Part shown: positions 1 to 30,985 of the stretch, piece after piece
How the letters are laid out: the number at the start of each line of letters is the position of its first letter
Position numbering within the stretch: the first letter of the stretch is position 1
From: Clostridiales bacterium
GTDB taxonomy: Bacteria; Bacillota; Clostridia; Saccharofermentanales; Saccharofermentanaceae
NCBI GenBank assembly: GCA_017617525.1
Contig: JAFZWA010000021.1
Location: forward strand, 1-64,000
Length of the DNA stretch: 64,000 nt
Direction of reading: 5' to 3'
The notes under the pieces: generated by a model
What the model was told of the DNA's origin: nothing
What the model saw: only the letters and a program-made list of their open reading frames with translations
Database searches by the model: none
Position numbers and translations under genes: made by a program

Positions 1-1419
1 GAATACACCTTCGTCAACGCCCGAAAGGATCGTGGTGGAGTGCGCGTCACTGTGACGGAGATTATTGATCTGCTGCATGGCAAGCTCAGCGACCGGGTTT
101 GTCGCGGCACTCATGGCAAGCGCGATCAGTACTTCATCCGTGTGCAGTCTCGGGTTGTGGTTACCCATGTGGTTGACCTTGAGATCCTGGATCGGTCCGA
201 TAACGTTTGGCGAGATGAGCGGGATCTCATGCTGGATACCGCCGAGGACCTTAAGCGCGTTCAGAAGAACCGCCGCCGAAGCGCCGAGGAACTCGGAGTT
301 CTTACCTGTAACGATCTGTCCGTCCGGAAGTTCAAGAGCTACAGCCGGACCATGTGTAGACTCGGCACGAACGAGCGCCGCGGAAACGACACGACGGTCA
401 TTGATCTCGATGCCGGACTTATTCATCAGGAGCTCGATCTTGCTGACATCCTGACCCTCGGACAGGCCCTGACGGACCATGCACTTAGCCTGGAAGTATC
501 TTCTGATGATCTCCTGCTTACTTGCTTCTCTGCAGGCCTCGTCATCTACGATGGCAAAGCCGGCCATGTTAACGCCCATGTCCGTCGGGCTCTTGTACGG
601 AGACTCGCCGTAGATCTTTTCAAAGATCGCGTTAACGACCGGGAAGATCTCCACGTCACGGTTGTAGTTGACGGTGGTCTCGCCGTAAGCCTCGAGGTGG
701 AACGGGTCGATCATGTTGACGTCCGCGAGGTCAGCGGTTGCCGCCTCGTATGCAATATTGACAGGGTGTGTCAGCGGCAGGCTCCAGATCGGGAATGTCT
801 CGAACTTCGCGTAGCCGGCCTTGATGCCTCTGATATTTTCGTGATAGAGCTGGGAAAGGCATGTCGCCATCTTTCCGGAACCCGGGCCCGGTGCCGTTAC
901 GACAACGAGGGAACGTGTCGTCTCGATATATTCATTCTTACCGTATCCTTCGTCACTTACGATGAGCGGAACGTTCATCGGGTAGCCCGCGATCGGATAC
1001 TGCTTATAGACCTTGATGCCGAGCTGGTGAAGTCTCTTAGCGAACTGCTCAGCCAAAGGCTGGTTCGTGTACTGCGTGATCGTAACGGATCCTACATAGA
1101 GTCCGATCTCGGTGAAAGCGTCGATCAGGCGGAGCACTTCCTGGTCGTATGTGATGCCGAGGTCACCTCTTCTTTTGTTCTTCTCGATAGCGTCCGCGTT
1201 GATCGCGATAACGATCTCGGCCTCGTCCTTGAGTTCGAGGAGCATCTTTACTTTACTGTCCGGTTCAAAGCCCGGGAGAACACGGGAAGCGTGGTAGTCA
1301 TCGAAGAGCTTTCCGCCGAATTCCAGATAGAGTTTTCCGCCGAATTTTCCGATTCGATCGCGGATCTTCTGCGACTGCATCTGTACATACTTCTCATTGC
1401 TAAAGCCTTCTTTAAACAT
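1..1419 (-). CDS. DUF1846 domain-containing protein, C-terminus cut by the window edge
   Basis: The reverse strand encodes 473 uninterrupted residues beginning [20 protein letters not shown] and running off the window edge, so the stop codon is not seen. The sequence matches the DUF1846 family (PF08903), usually about 490-500 aa, so only a short tail should be missing. A glycine-rich P-loop-like stretch ([12 protein letters not shown]) lies near residue 180, suggesting nucleotide binding; the family's reaction is not established to my knowledge. The start is supported by AAAGGGG about 11 nt upstream. The gene diverges from dtd. Its leader contains a promoter and an intrinsic terminator, so regulation by attenuation is plausible. 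A long forward-strand frame here is the mirror of this gene. Confidence 0.85.
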
Positions 1420-1473
1420 ACAACTCACGCCCCTTTGCGGAAAGACGAGGCTTAATCGCCTTTCTCTTTTACC

Positions 1474-1513
1474 AAATAAAAAGAGCTCCTCGCGAACAAT
1501 TCTTGAGAAGCTC
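1474..1513 (-). terminator. Leader terminator (candidate attenuator) upstream of the DUF1846 gene
   Basis: The reverse-strand RNA has a 9-bp stem (GAGCTTCTC pairing with GAGGAGCTC, one U-G pair), a 13-nt loop and an immediate U-rich tail (TTTTTATTT). No reverse-strand gene ends upstream: the neighbour dtd diverges. It therefore lies inside the leader of the DUF1846 transcript and would stop it after about 60 nt. The leader's 5' end (AAAGAGC) can pair with the terminator's 3' arm (GCTCTTT), giving an alternative fold. Confidence 0.6.
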
Positions 1514-1540
1514 GTCAGCCTTTTTCAACGGCTCTTTGCA

Positions 1541-1568
1541 ATTATAACACATTTTGATATCCTGTCTA
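1541..1568 (-). promoter_or_regulatory. Sigma-A-type promoter for the DUF1846 gene
   Basis: On the reverse strand TAGACA (1568-1563) and TATAAT (1546-1541) are separated by 16 bp. This predicts a transcript starting near 1534 and a leader of about 115 nt. Confidence 0.6.
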
Positions 1569-1601: not shown

Positions 1602-2060
1602 ATGCGATTTTTGATCCAGCGCGTGACCTCGGCAAAAGTAGACGTCGAAGGAAAAACGGTCGGTTCGATCGACCACGGATTCCTCGTTTTCATCGGTGTC
1701 TGTAATACGGATACGAAGGAGATCGCCGACGGCATGGTCAAGAAACTCCTGGGCCTTCGGATCTTCCGCGACGAGAACGGAAAGACCAACTTAAGCCTTT
1801 CCGATGTGGGCGGAAGCCTTCTTCTCATTTCCCAGTTCACACTCTATGCCGACTGCCATCACGGCAATCGTCCGTCGTTCATCAACGCGGGGTCCCCGGA
1901 TCTGGCAAATGACCTTTACGAGTACATCATTGATTCCTGCAAAAAGCAGATCCCGATCGTAAGAACCGGGATCTTCGGTGCGGATATGGCAGTATCTATC
2001 GAAAACCAGGGTCCTTTCACCATCATGCTCGACAGCGAAGAGATCCTGAAGAAAAAGTGA
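1602..2060 (+). CDS. dtd: D-aminoacyl-tRNA deacylase (Dtd)
   Basis: The protein is 152 aa, close to the usual 145-150. It hydrolyses D-amino acids mischarged onto tRNA (and glycine from tRNA-Ala) in the cytoplasm. The N-terminus MRFLIQRVTSAKVDVEGKTV is canonical. The family motif SQFTLYAD is present near residue 80 and the Gly-cisPro region appears as NQGPFTIML near residue 137. The start at 1602 is chosen over an upstream alternative because AAAGGAG lies 9 nt before it and because family proteins begin at this methionine. It is monocistronic, diverging from the DUF1846 gene and converging on serpin 1 across only about 30 nt, where I see no strong terminator. Confidence 0.93.
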   Translation: MRFLIQRVTSAKVDVEGKTVGSIDHGFLVFIGVCNTDTKEIADGMVKKLLGLRIFRDENGKTNLSLSDVGGSLLLISQFTLYADCHHGNRPSFINAGSPDLANDLYEYIIDSCKKQIPIVRTGIFGADMAVSIENQGPFTIMLDSEEILKKK

Positions 2061-2091: not shown

Positions 2092-3378
2092 TTAAACGTC
2101 TTCCACGGTTCCCAGGAAGATCGGAAGCCCTGTTGTCGTGTCGACGATCGCGTACGCGAACGGGCGGTCACATGTGACATAGGCCACGCCATCAGGGCCA
2201 ATTCCGAGCGTCATGACCGCGGTGGTCGCTGCCGCCGCCTGCGTGCCTTCAGGTGTCACACGGATGAACGTCTTGTGAAGAACGCTTCCGATGAATACCG
2301 GTTCTTCCGTCATATTCGAAAAATCCGCTTCCGATGAAAAAGCGTCTTCCATTCCCATTGCCGAGAGGATATCTTTCATTTCGACAGAGAATTCCGATTC
2401 AAACTGAGGCATGGATGTATAGACCCGCGTCCGAATACGGCTGTCCCAGAATGCCCGGTAATCTTCTGCCGTCATTTCCGAGATGAACTGGTTGATGTCC
2501 GCCTTCTCATCGAGCGGCAGGATCGTCAAAAAAGCGTAATGGCCTTCCACATAAGGCTTCAAAAAACCTTCCGCTTTTCCGTTGTTGAAATACGCTTCTT
2601 CCGATCCGTCGAGGAAGTCGACGTACTTCTCTTCACCGTTCCCGTTTGTGAAATAGTGTTTCGTTACCCCGTCCTCTACATATCGCTTCGCCCATCTTGC
2701 ATCGAAGGTGATCGTGTTGACAAGGACCATCAGGTCAGAGGGACTGAGGCTATCGATGATCTTATCGATCATGCCGTCGGTCTCTTCACTGACCCATCCG
2801 TTGACCTCGGAAACGCCCGCGTCATTAAATCCGATCGACTCTACTTCCGCCTCGAAGTGTTCTTTTACATAGGAAACATAATCCTCGTATACATAGTCGG
2901 CTTTTTCTTTATTGAACCAGACGGAGTTCGCGATCCCGAGCGTGTCGTCCGACTGCTCGTACATACGGTCCGACGCGTAAAGAAGCGCTTCCGCAGGGTC
3001 TGATCCGGGCACCATCGTTTCGATCATCTGGTCAAGCGTATCGCCTTCCGCGCCCGAAGCGACCATCATCATCGTATAGAATATCGAGTCCGGAGAGATC
3101 AGGACGTTTTCTTTTCCCGCTCCCGAAGAGCATTTATTCATCATCTCGAAAACGAAATCCAGATACGCGTCATTCATTTTATCCGTATCCAGAGAAGTCT
3201 TTCCGGACTTCGCTTCGGCAAGTTCAAAGACGGCTTCGTTTCCGTTATCTCTTGTCTTGGTCTTGATGTTGTACTCCGCGTCGCCGGAAGAACTGCCCGA
3301 TTTCTTCGAACATCCCGCCGACACCGACATAAGAAGTGACACGGTAAGTATCATGGAAAGAAGTTTTTTCATTCTCAT
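2092..3378 (-). CDS. Serpin-family protease inhibitor, lipoprotein (serpin 1)
   Basis: The 428-aa protein starts MRMKKLLSMILTVSLL with a lipobox ending in SAGC, so it should be lipid-anchored outside the membrane. The rest is a full serpin fold: the C-terminal signature CDRPFAYAIVDTTTGLPIFL is clear. The reactive-centre hinge EGTQAAAATT has the small residues needed for loop insertion, so it should be a true inhibitor. Counting from the hinge glycine as P15 puts P1 near Leu-Gly, an approximate assignment. The start is set by AGGAGG 8 nt upstream; an upstream GTG is less likely. It is a paralog of the serpin at 6150-7466. The target is unknown; host, competitor or self proteases are all possible. 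Confidence 0.92.
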   Translation of the reverse strand: MRMKKLLSMILTVSLLMSVSAGCSKKSGSSSGDAEYNIKTKTRDNGNEAVFELAEAKSGKTSLDTDKMNDAYLDFVFEMMNKCSSGAGKENVLISPDSIFYTMMMVASGAEGDTLDQMIETMVPGSDPAEALLYASDRMYEQSDDTLGIANSVWFNKEKADYVYEDYVSYVKEHFEAEVESIGFNDAGVSEVNGWVSEETDGMIDKIIDSLSPSDLMVLVNTITFDARWAKRYVEDGVTKHYFTNGNGEEKYVDFLDGSEEAYFNNGKAEGFLKPYVEGHYAFLTILPLDEKADINQFISEMTAEDYRAFWDSRIRTRVYTSMPQFESEFSVEMKDILSAMGMEDAFSSEADFSNMTEEPVFIGSVLHKTFIRVTPEGTQAAAATTAVMTLGIGPDGVAYVTCDRPFAYAIVDTTTGLPIFLGTVEDV

Positions 3379-3516
3379 CGTCTGCTCCTCCTTGCCTTTT
3401 GATCGACACACATTATTCCTTTTCGAAAAGCACCTTCGTGCAGCTCTATTTTACAACAGAAAGAGTTTCTTTTATAATTACATCTGTTCATTTCCCGAAG
3501 TTTCGGGGAACACGAT

Positions 3517-6149: not shown

Positions 6150-7466
6150 TCAGACGCTCTCTACTGTTCCGAGGAATACCGGAAGACCTGTATCCATATC
6201 AACGATCGCGTAAGCGTACGGACGATCACAGTAAACTGTATGGTACGGTTCCGGCTCCGCGACACAGGATTCGGTAATCAAAACAGCTGTTGCCGCAGCT
6301 GCCTTGGTGCCTTCTCGGTCGACTTCGATGTATGTCTTATGGATAACATCGGAAATATAAGCGTCGGTCTTGCAAAGATTCGAAAAATTCGCTTTTCTTT
6401 CGTCAAATGCATCTGTCATGCCCATTTTCTGAAGGGCCATCGGAAGGTGGACCTCATACTCGCTTTTGAACTGCGGCATCTTTGTCTGGACTTCCATCGA
6501 AGAGTCTTTACTGTTCCAGAATTCCCAGTACTCATCCGATGTCATGTCCGCCATGAACTCGTTGATGTCGATGGAAGCATCATTCGGAAGGATCGTCATG
6601 AAAGCGTACTTTCCGTCATCGTACTCCTTGATGAAACCGGTCGCCTCATCGTTACTGAGATACAGGGATTCTGTCGAGGACAGGAATGTCACTGTCGTTC
6701 TTTCGCCGTTTCCGTTTGTAAAAGCATCCTCGTAGACCTGGTAGTCTTCGTACCCGGTCTTCCATGTGCCGTCAAACGCGATCGCGTTGACCAGGACCAT
6801 CAGGCTGCTTCCATCTAAATCATCGACCAGTTTACTGATCCTGTTTTTTGTCTTCTGAGCGACCCAGTCATTGATCTGATCGACTGCGTTCGGACCAAAA
6901 GGCAGGACGGACACGCCGGCATCGAAATTCTGCTTAACATACTGAAGATAATCTTCATAAACGTTCTCGCTTCTTGCCTCATTGATCCATACGGAATTCG
7001 CGATCTGAAGAGAATCATTCTTCAGAGAATTCATGCGGTCTACACCATATCGGAAAGCCTGATCGTTACCTACTCCCGGCACCATCGTATTCATCATCTG
7101 TGTAAGCGTATCGCCGTCGGCACCCGCGGCTGTCATATCCAGCGCGAAAAGGATGGAGTCTGCGGAGATCAGTACATTCCCGCCGTCGGATTCTTCAGCA
7201 CAGCTCTTCATCAGTCCGAAGATGAAATCAGAATATGCTCTGTTCAATTCTTCTTCCGTCATCTGCGTTCCGGATGTCGCGGACAGCTCGAAAACCGCCT
7301 GCTTTCCGTTATCTCTTTTTACTGTTGGAACATCCAGTGTGATCACAACGGGATCCTCGCTTCCGAGTTTTCCCGTGTGCGTATTCTTACTTGTCTTTTT
7401 CGAGCATCCGGATGCCATCGACATGATGACGGATGCGATCAATAATGCGGCTACTCTTTTCTTCAT
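6150..7466 (-). CDS. Serpin-family protease inhibitor, lipoprotein (serpin 2)
   Basis: The 438-aa protein starts MKKRVAALLIASVIMSM and has a lipobox (MASGC). The serpin domain fills the rest, with hinge REGTKAAAATAV and C-terminal signature CDRPYAYAIVDMDTGLPVFL. P15 counting gives P1 near Ser with Cys at P1', so its target should differ from serpin 1. The two share a colinear layout (RDNGK/NxAVFEL start, NVLIS, GDTLxQM, TMVPG), showing duplication, but the reactive loops have diverged. AGG 9 nt upstream supports this start over an upstream TTG. Confidence 0.92.
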   Translation of the reverse strand: MKKRVAALLIASVIMSMASGCSKKTSKNTHTGKLGSEDPVVITLDVPTVKRDNGKQAVFELSATSGTQMTEEELNRAYSDFIFGLMKSCAEESDGGNVLISADSILFALDMTAAGADGDTLTQMMNTMVPGVGNDQAFRYGVDRMNSLKNDSLQIANSVWINEARSENVYEDYLQYVKQNFDAGVSVLPFGPNAVDQINDWVAQKTKNRISKLVDDLDGSSLMVLVNAIAFDGTWKTGYEDYQVYEDAFTNGNGERTTVTFLSSTESLYLSNDEATGFIKEYDDGKYAFMTILPNDASIDINEFMADMTSDEYWEFWNSKDSSMEVQTKMPQFKSEYEVHLPMALQKMGMTDAFDERKANFSNLCKTDAYISDVIHKTYIEVDREGTKAAAATAVLITESCVAEPEPYHTVYCDRPYAYAIVDMDTGLPVFLGTVESV

Positions 7467-7601
7467 TTTCTTTTTCCTCACTTTTTCAAAGTATGTATTC
7501 AAACTTCGCGTTGTTTGTATTGCATGAGAATCATCGATTCATCGCAAGGCCATTCTGCATATTAGACGACGCGAAAAGCACTTGTGTTGCACATCTCCGA
7601 G

Positions 7602-29395: not shown

Positions 29396-30163
29396 ATGAT
29401 CGCTTTGGTTTTAGCTGCCGGATATGCCACAAGACTTTATCCGCTGACGATAAATACACCGAAACCTCTTCTGCCCGTTGGACCGAAGACGATGATCGAT
29501 TACATCGTTGATGAGATCGAGACGATCTCCGATGTAAATAAGATCGTTGTCGTTACCAACCACCGCTTCGCCGGCCACTTTGACGAGTGGGCGGAAAAGC
29601 GCCTTGCCGAAGACTCGGAAAACGGGATCGATCTTCCGATCGAGATCATTGACGACGGAACGACCGACGATTCCAATAAGCTCGGCGCCATCGGCGACAT
29701 CCAGTTCGTGATCGATAAGCTTTCGATCGACGAGGATCTGATGATCATCGCCGGCGATAACCTTTTCACATATAAGCTTTCCGACATGTATGACTTCTTC
29801 AAGACGAACGGAAAAGATACGCTCGTCGCGATCCATGTCGAACCCATCGAGCAGTTAAGAAAGCTCGCTGTCGCGATCCTCGATGATGACTGCAAGGTCC
29901 TTTCCCTGGCCGAAAAGCCGAAGGAGCCGAAGTCCCATACCGCGATCTACGCGACATACATGTATCTTCGTGAGACTCTTCCGATGATCCGAAAGTACCT
30001 TGACGAAGGCAATACGCCGGATGCTCCCGGCAACTTCCCTTCCTGGCTTTACACAAGGAAAGATGTTCTTGCCTATCGCGCACCCGGCGTATGTATCGAC
30101 ATCGGCACGCCCGAAAACTATAAGGACGTGTGTGACAACTACGAAGAGATCTTAGGCTTATGA
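29396..30163 (+). CDS. Sugar-phosphate nucleotidyltransferase (RmlA-like)
   Basis: The 255-aa enzyme has the G-x-G-T-R-type loop LVLAAGYATRLYPLT and PKPLLPV of NTP-transferase family proteins, plus GDNLF (metal Asp) near residue 121 and IDIGTPENY near the C-terminus. It would join a sugar-1-phosphate to a nucleotide for glycan synthesis; whether it uses glucose, mannose or another sugar is not clear. It lacks the left-handed helix of GlmU. SD AAAGGA is upstream. Its stop overlaps the convergent riboflavin transporter stop (TTATGA), leaving no space for a terminator. Confidence 0.88.
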   Translation: MIALVLAAGYATRLYPLTINTPKPLLPVGPKTMIDYIVDEIETISDVNKIVVVTNHRFAGHFDEWAEKRLAEDSENGIDLPIEIIDDGTTDDSNKLGAIGDIQFVIDKLSIDEDLMIIAGDNLFTYKLSDMYDFFKTNGKDTLVAIHVEPIEQLRKLAVAILDDDCKVLSLAEKPKEPKSHTAIYATYMYLRETLPMIRKYLDEGNTPDAPGNFPSWLYTRKDVLAYRAPGVCIDIGTPENYKDVCDNYEEILGL

Positions 30164-30847
30164 GGCCTTCTCTTCAGTAGTTTCTTTAGTTCCTTTTCCC
30201 GTCTCAAGCTTGTCCTCATTAAAGAAGCGGCTGAGAGGGATATAAACAAGAAGTGTCACGAGAGAGATCGAAAGTCCCTTGAAAATGTTGAACGGAACGA
30301 ATGTCATCAGGATCACGTCCAGCTTGGAGTTGATCTTGACGAATGTGTTCGCTTCGTCGCACATTCCGATGATCGCAGGAAGCGGGAATCCCATTACCTT
30401 CTCATAAAGAGGCAGGCAGAAGAAGTAGTTGACGATGCTTGTCGCAAGCGTAAGCGCAACTGTTCCCGAGATGAGCGAGTAGATGATCGCTTCACTTCTC
30501 TTGCTTCTGAGAGCACGGAATACCATGGCTCCTGTGATAACAAAAACGCTTCCGGAAATAAAGTTCGCTACCTCACCGATATACTGTGTGTTCGTAAACG
30601 GCATGTGCAGGAGGTTCTTAAGAAACTCTACGATCACGCCCGCGACCGGACCACAGACGAAGCCGGCGAAAAGCGCCGGAATGTCGGAAAAGTCGTACTT
30701 AAGAAAACCCGGCATAAGAGGAAGCGGGATCTCGAGCATCATGAGCACTTCCGCCAAAGCCGTCATTACACCCATAAGCGCGACTCGGTAGATCATTTTC
30801 TTTCTGGATTGATTTTGTTCTTTGAGATTTGTTGTTACTTCTGACAT
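30158..30847 (-). CDS. ribU: Riboflavin ECF transporter S component
   Basis: The 229-aa membrane protein has about six helices and the RibU-type segment MPFTNTQYIGEVANFISG near residue 82. It binds riboflavin and works with the shared EcfAAT module, which is not in this window. The FMN riboswitch directly upstream makes the assignment firm. The start at 30847 uses AAGGAG, the last bases of the riboswitch region. The N-terminus (about 20 aa) and C-terminus are charged and cytoplasmic. Confidence 0.95.
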   Translation of the reverse strand: MSEVTTNLKEQNQSRKKMIYRVALMGVMTALAEVLMMLEIPLPLMPGFLKYDFSDIPALFAGFVCGPVAGVIVEFLKNLLHMPFTNTQYIGEVANFISGSVFVITGAMVFRALRSKRSEAIIYSLISGTVALTLATSIVNYFFCLPLYEKVMGFPLPAIIGMCDEANTFVKINSKLDVILMTFVPFNIFKGLSISLVTLLVYIPLSRFFNEDKLETGKGTKETTEEKAS

Positions 30848-30858
30848 TTATACCACTC

Positions 30859-30976
30859 CTTCCATCCGGACTATACCGTCGGCACCGGATTCGCACCGGT
30901 TCTGCTCTTCGCTCGCGGGCTCGTATCTTCTCGTGATACATCACCGCCGGTGGGGAATCACACCCCGCCCTGAAGT
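30859..30976 (-). ncRNA. FMN riboswitch (RFN element)
   Basis: The reverse strand contains the conserved FMN aptamer blocks in order: CTTCAGGGCGGGG, TTCCCCACCGGCGGT, AGCCCGCGAGC, CCGGTGCGAATCCGGTG, CCGACGGTATAGTCCGGATG and GGAAG. The 3' strand of P1 (GGAAG) overlaps the ribU Shine-Dalgarno (AAGGAG, 30861-30856). No terminator lies before the ATG, so control should be at translation initiation: FMN binding closes P1 and hides the SD. Confidence 0.96.
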
Positions 30977-30985
30977 TACGACAGG

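Follow-up and report, generated by a model that had tools for sequence, protein, structure and literature searches.

What is an intrinsic terminator doing between the promoter and the start codon of a DUF1846 gene? The question arises in a window of 64,000 nucleotides (the whole stretch of Saccharofermentanaceae DNA analysed here), whose minus strand carries a promoter, a leader of about 60 nt and then a terminator upstream of such a gene (Table 1). DUF1846 genes are widespread in Gram-positive bacteria and their function is disputed; a dedicated, conserved switch would be a handle on that function in vitro, as anything altering termination on the short leader would become a candidate substrate, product or partner of the protein. 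We consider it probable (roughly 60%) that the leader attenuates the transcription of DUF1846 in cis, and that a bound factor would shift the balance between an antiterminator and the terminator.

Table 1. Features of the DUF1846 leader region in the window (g1, g2, g4 and g5 are genera of the Saccharofermentanaceae; L numbers are individual loci)
Feature	Position	Strand	Remarks
-35 hexamer TAGACA	1563..1568	-	kept in most of 23 aligned g1 leaders; TGGACA in L012 and L014
-10 hexamer TATAAT, extended TG	1541..1546	-	unchanged in all 28 leaders
5' core AAAGAGCC, at or adjoining the putative transcription start	1530..1537	-	invariant; start placed from spacing to the -10 hexamer
Small hairpin H1, AGCC (1533-1530):GGCU (1520-1517)	1517..1533	-	23 of 25 distinct leaders have all of GCC:GGC; no covariation
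Candidate antiterminator, AGAGCCGUU (1535-1527):terminator 5' arm region (1516-1506)	1506..1535	-	bulges at 1512 and about 1509/1508; seen in prefix folds of all 25 distinct leaders
Intrinsic terminator	1478..1513	-	5' arm 1513-1505, 3' arm 1491-1483, U-run 1482-1478
Variable rest of 5' UTR, with ribosome-binding sequence AAAGGGG (1436-1430)	1420..1477	-	from alignment; 22-24 nt in L017, L019, L020 and L021
DUF1846 / UPF0371 gene	1..1419	-	runs past window start; PF08903, PF20921; folds 7f00, 3bh1

Promoter scanning and RNA folding bear out the coordinates, the promoter (TAGACA-16-TATAAT) and the hairpin of the original prediction, which had been made from the letters of the DNA. The promoter agrees with the consensus at 11 of 12 positions and has the extended TG; it shares first place among the promoter-like sites in the first 5 kb with one plus-strand site, and a 261-base stretch holds two such sites where shuffles lead one to expect 0.2. 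Judged from the spacing to the -10 hexamer, transcription would start just past TATAAT, near the 5' core, and the predicted transcript from about position 1537 reads AAAGAGCCGUUGAAAAAGGCUGACGAGCUUCUCAAGAAUUGUUCGCGAGGAGCUCUUUUU. By eye, the promoter spacer (1535-1560) is unusually conserved in the g1 alignment; on the plus strand the same interval contains TTGCAA-16-TATGCT/TATCCT, which may be a divergent dtd promoter overlapping that of DUF1846.

The terminator combines a 9-bp stem with five U residues, and its U-run ends 58 nt ahead of the DUF1846 start codon. The region 1469-1534 folds at -20.9 kcal/mol, which is a modest departure from chance (z = -2.0, with 8 of 200 shuffles equally good), and the stability of the whole 115-nt 5' UTR is not unusual (z -1.2). 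Because its loop is longer than 8 nt, a simple terminator scan does not report the hairpin, which was found by folding. Across 25 distinct leaders three of its nine pairs are altered on both sides (11 cells), through concerted changes from A-U to G-C, from C-G to U-A and from U-A to G-C, and 98.2% of cells pair; the covariation score, which takes in the terminator pairs together with the three pairs of the small hairpin H1, is 0.204 against 0.125 in shuffles, and none of 500 shuffles reaches it. H1 itself can almost always form. The locus therefore shows two marks of a transcription attenuator, namely a promoter followed by an intrinsic terminator and then by a start codon on the same strand, and a terminator whose structure is conserved. 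As the original prediction had also said, no upstream minus-strand gene requires a terminator here, since the neighbour is the divergent gene dtd (PF02580; window 1602-2060, plus strand).

Three Saccharofermentanaceae genera have the leader before DUF1846 in each of their 28 genomes (23 of g1, two of g2 and three of g4). All 23 g1 genomes possess the gene, with promoter, core and hairpin in every upstream region; a model of 21 distinct g1 leaders (R1) also matches before DUF1846 in the three g4 genomes, and the two g2 leaders were added by reading the DUF1846 upstream regions. The exact pattern TATAATNGNAAAGAGCC occurs once per genome in all 28. Of the order's remaining 160 genomes one contains it, though not before DUF1846 and, by eye, without a hairpin. 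The block TATAAT-N-G-N-AAAGAGCC is invariant across the 25 distinct leaders. Between g1 and g2/g4 the DUF1846 protein is 75-77% identical, while the fourfold synonymous sites of its gene (nine genes compared) are only 31-43% identical; synonymous sites are thus near saturation among the three genera, yet the leader core is invariant. With synonymous sites near saturation, and with a covarying terminator, the conservation of the leader, which is almost unchanged among these related gut and biogas bacteria, is more than chance or mere relatedness.

The expectation that relatives would share the leader holds in g1, g2 and g4 but not in g5 (the family's largest genus), where 16 of 16 DUF1846 upstream regions read are without it. 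Inspection by eye found it in none of 11 further DUF1846 upstream regions (ten from three other families and one from g5; the gene start of one of them, L133, is misplaced), and those of most other sampled Clostridia lack such a leader as well. Since DUF1846 genes elsewhere stand without it, the leader is lineage-specific and not a general feature of DUF1846. Over 391 genomes of the class, model R3 gave one strong match, which is the window itself, and six other genomes matched at E 0.01-0.05, the level of chance for 391 genomes. In a named genome collection the exact core pattern was found at 42 loci, 26 of which have DUF1846 in the fetched stretch; the remaining 16, without DUF1846 there and by eye without a terminator, were taken as chance. 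The named records with the leader include Candidatus Scatonaster (Saccharofermentanaceae, Saccharofermentanales), and viral contigs gave no match to the core pattern. A home-made scan of the 200 bases upstream of DUF1846, which recovers seven of seven positive controls (the gene start is misplaced for at least L195 and L202), flagged four of 27 class-level loci (L199, L205, L209 and L210), with hairpins 96-122 nt before the gene that could instead end an upstream gene, as well as weaker or odd hairpins at L072, L078, L127 and L130. A search for further copies of the leader in its own genome yielded weak DNA and model matches only, among them TGCAAAGAGCCGTCGAAAA (locus L029, contig C62, about 1501-1519, minus strand), which shares 18 of 19 bases with the DUF1846 leader, lacks the full terminator arrangement and, at E 0.22-0.23, was put down to chance. 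This match sits before a SerC-like aminotransferase gene.

Does the leader act on DUF1846, or does it merely lie beside it? The dtd gene is the divergent neighbour in g1; in g2 and g4 (L085, L086, L087, L088 and L089, read from named records of the same genomes) that place is taken by a MATE-like transporter, identified by sequence, and the leader still precedes DUF1846. In four of the 23 g1 loci (L017, L019, L020 and L021), moreover, only 22-24 nt separate the U-run from the ATG, so that another promoter would hardly fit and DUF1846 would have to be reached by read-through. From the change of neighbour and the short gap together, we infer that DUF1846 is most likely transcribed by read-through and that the leader is a cis attenuator, as the original prediction had proposed and as the joint conservation of leader and gene and the covarying terminator also support. 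The same facts weigh on a quite different reading, in which the terminated RNA of about 60 nt would be a trans-acting small RNA with AAAGAGCC as its seed and read-through into DUF1846 would be secondary: small RNAs typically combine a conserved 5' end and a variable terminator, and there is a single leader copy per genome, but the leader always lies directly before DUF1846 while the other neighbour varies, and the four short loci leave no room for a separate DUF1846 promoter. We regard such a small RNA as very unlikely.

The original prediction had proposed a fold that competes with the terminator, in which AAAGAGC at the 5' end pairs with the terminator 3' arm (GCUCUUU). This fold is possible in the window and throughout g1, where 21 distinct leaders give 146 paired cells out of 147 and G-U replacements preserve the pairing, but in g2 and g4 the partner is gone: the arms end in CGCCCGUUUU or similar in the alignment, although AAAGAGCC is unchanged. 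The U-run itself, furthermore, supplies part of the match, and in five g1 leaders the enforced fold reaches -11 to -14 kcal/mol as against -19 to -22 for the terminator fold, so that we give a switch of this kind scant credence.

A second competitor pairs the 5' core with the terminator 5' arm; when the RNA is folded only as far as that arm extends, it comes out as the optimal structure in 25 of 25 distinct leaders. In g1, AGAGCCGUU pairs with GACG[A]GC[U]UCU (the predicted fold ends at GAGC:GCUU; the outer pairs, AG:CU beside a shifted bulge, come from a manual reading); in g2 and g4, AGAGCC pairs with GGC[G]UCU, with a mismatch at the pair following GCC. In nine leaders folded at increasing length, this hairpin becomes the optimal structure at about 28-30 nt and remains so until 40-50 nt, later than H1 and ahead of the terminator. 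Placed on the alignment, its nine pairs are formed in 96.4% of cells, against at most 57.8% when the pairing is slid, and within the 5'-arm columns 34-41 the two most variable columns are the two bulged ones. We take it as the better candidate for the competing fold than the pairing with the 3' arm, and as a candidate antiterminator rather than a proven one, because none of its pairs is changed on both sides (five are invariant), its covariation score is nothing unusual, being reached by 316 of 500 shuffles, and its energy is no better than that of shuffled sequences, 3-44% of dinucleotide shuffles being as stable.

On the attenuator reading that we prefer, RNA polymerase would reach the terminator about 45-60 nt after the start, and without read-through DUF1846 would not be transcribed. 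The nascent RNA can adopt three mutually exclusive folds, and would pass through them in order: H1, then the antiterminator, in which AGAGCC(RYY) would be paired with the terminator 5' arm, and then the terminator. As the terminator, at -12 to -25 kcal/mol, is far more stable than the antiterminator, at -6 to -8 kcal/mol, a factor would be required; bound to the antiterminator hairpin or to the invariant 5' end, it would shift the balance between the two folds, and it might be a small ligand or a protein, DUF1846 itself being one possibility. The alignment of three genera names the nucleotides to mutate.

The weakness of the antiterminator, which is no stabler than shuffles and shows no covariation, would suit a static attenuator, in which a partial terminator sets a low, constant level of DUF1846 and the 5' core serves initiation (start region or escape) and not sensing; that promoter and core are conserved as a single block points the same way. 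The invariance, however, runs on past +8 and takes in GRGC-N-UCUC within the 5' arm, more conservation than a terminator or start site usually needs, and we hold this reading to be unlikely, if one to be reckoned with. At the other extreme, the extreme 5' end of the RNA might itself be a new and very small class of regulatory RNA, with some 25-30 nt (AAAGAGCCRYY plus the terminator 5' arm) sensing a metabolite or binding DUF1846. This possibility seems to us decidedly doubtful; if true, the switch would be autogenous or ligand-driven, and its signal would reveal what DUF1846, an essential protein in Clostridioides difficile, does.

The design of the leader is of a known type, yet it falls outside every catalogued Rfam family: no family matched above its gathering score. 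Riboswitch expression platforms resemble it in their three exclusive folds, their compact conserved 5' part and their cis linkage to one gene, and differ in that the DUF1846 leader has neither an Rfam match nor a covarying aptamer, its conserved part being only about 25-30 nt. A peptide-coding, ribosome-mediated attenuator is excluded, because one-base differences in loop length (GTTGAAAAA, GTTAAAAA) break any reading frame and no ATG is conserved, as read by eye from the alignments.

The RAT sites recognised by LicT, SacY and BglG are antiterminator hairpins that overlap the 5' arm of a terminator. The DUF1846 leader is similarly built: a short hairpin, some 30 nt long, extends into the 5' part of the terminator, and stabilising that hairpin would permit read-through. 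The leader sequence, however, is unlike the RAT consensus, the gene downstream is DUF1846 and not a sugar operon, and no LicT-type CAT_RBD protein exceeded the cut-off in any of 22 genomes (one weak match, in G024). ANTAR leaders of the EutV type likewise have, close to the 5' end, a hairpin and a terminator that exclude each other, and their motif, according to PMC8934654, requires hexaloops whose first base is A and whose fourth is G. Of 17 leader-bearing genomes tested, 16 carry one ANTAR gene, as against one of five g5 genomes that lack the leader; phylogeny by itself could account for this correlation. The hexaloop GCC-AxxGxx-GGC, however, is not conserved: among 25 leaders scanned, 20 of them from g1, it occurs only in L087, L088 and L089 (g2 plus L087), L016 and L018 have an AAGGAA loop on a weak GUU:GGC stem, and the 5' part of the other 20, L085 and L086 included, has no ANTAR hexaloop, so that the rule fails in g1. 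The ANTAR gene, moreover, adjoins a glutamine synthetase gene whose own leader bears an A1/G4 hexaloop. Small hairpins overlapping a terminator are common to all these systems, but antitermination by a known protein family, whether ANTAR or LicT/BglG, appears highly improbable for DUF1846. The glutamine synthetase leader (L214 2357-2760, contig C46 of the same genome), in which an AAAGGC hexaloop hairpin overlaps a terminator-like stem next to the ANTAR response regulator gene, resembles a conventional ANTAR target.

The assignment of the gene itself is clear (PF08903, E=1e-180; PF20921, E=1.4e-56; NF010184 also over its cut-off), and its solved relatives of the same family, SPD_0310 (7f00) and DIP2346 (3bh1), match at E=2e-196 and 5e-180 with TM of about 0.9. 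A protein fold search for a functional hint scored well only within the family. The original prediction is largely correct in calling the function of DUF1846 not well established, but two claims have been published: SPD_0310 is reported to bind hemin, with a structure and a proposed role in the pneumococcus (PMC9238395), and knockdown of C. difficile CDR20291_0828 is reported to give a strong viability defect and elongated cells, with essentiality in print (PMC12548448). The available portions of the literature on DUF1846/UPF0371, SPD_0310 and DIP2346 included, mention no RNA leader, and a literature search for riboswitches in Saccharofermentanales returned nothing.

Elsewhere in the window, two serpin genes lie within 6 kb of each other (2092-3411 and 6150-7502, both on the minus strand; PF00079, E 5e-80 and 6e-82), and both have, by eye, lipoprotein-like signal regions. 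An FMN riboswitch (30850-30981, minus strand, 106 bits) stands directly before a gene for an ECF transporter S component (30158-30847, PF12822), a textbook arrangement for the control of riboflavin uptake.
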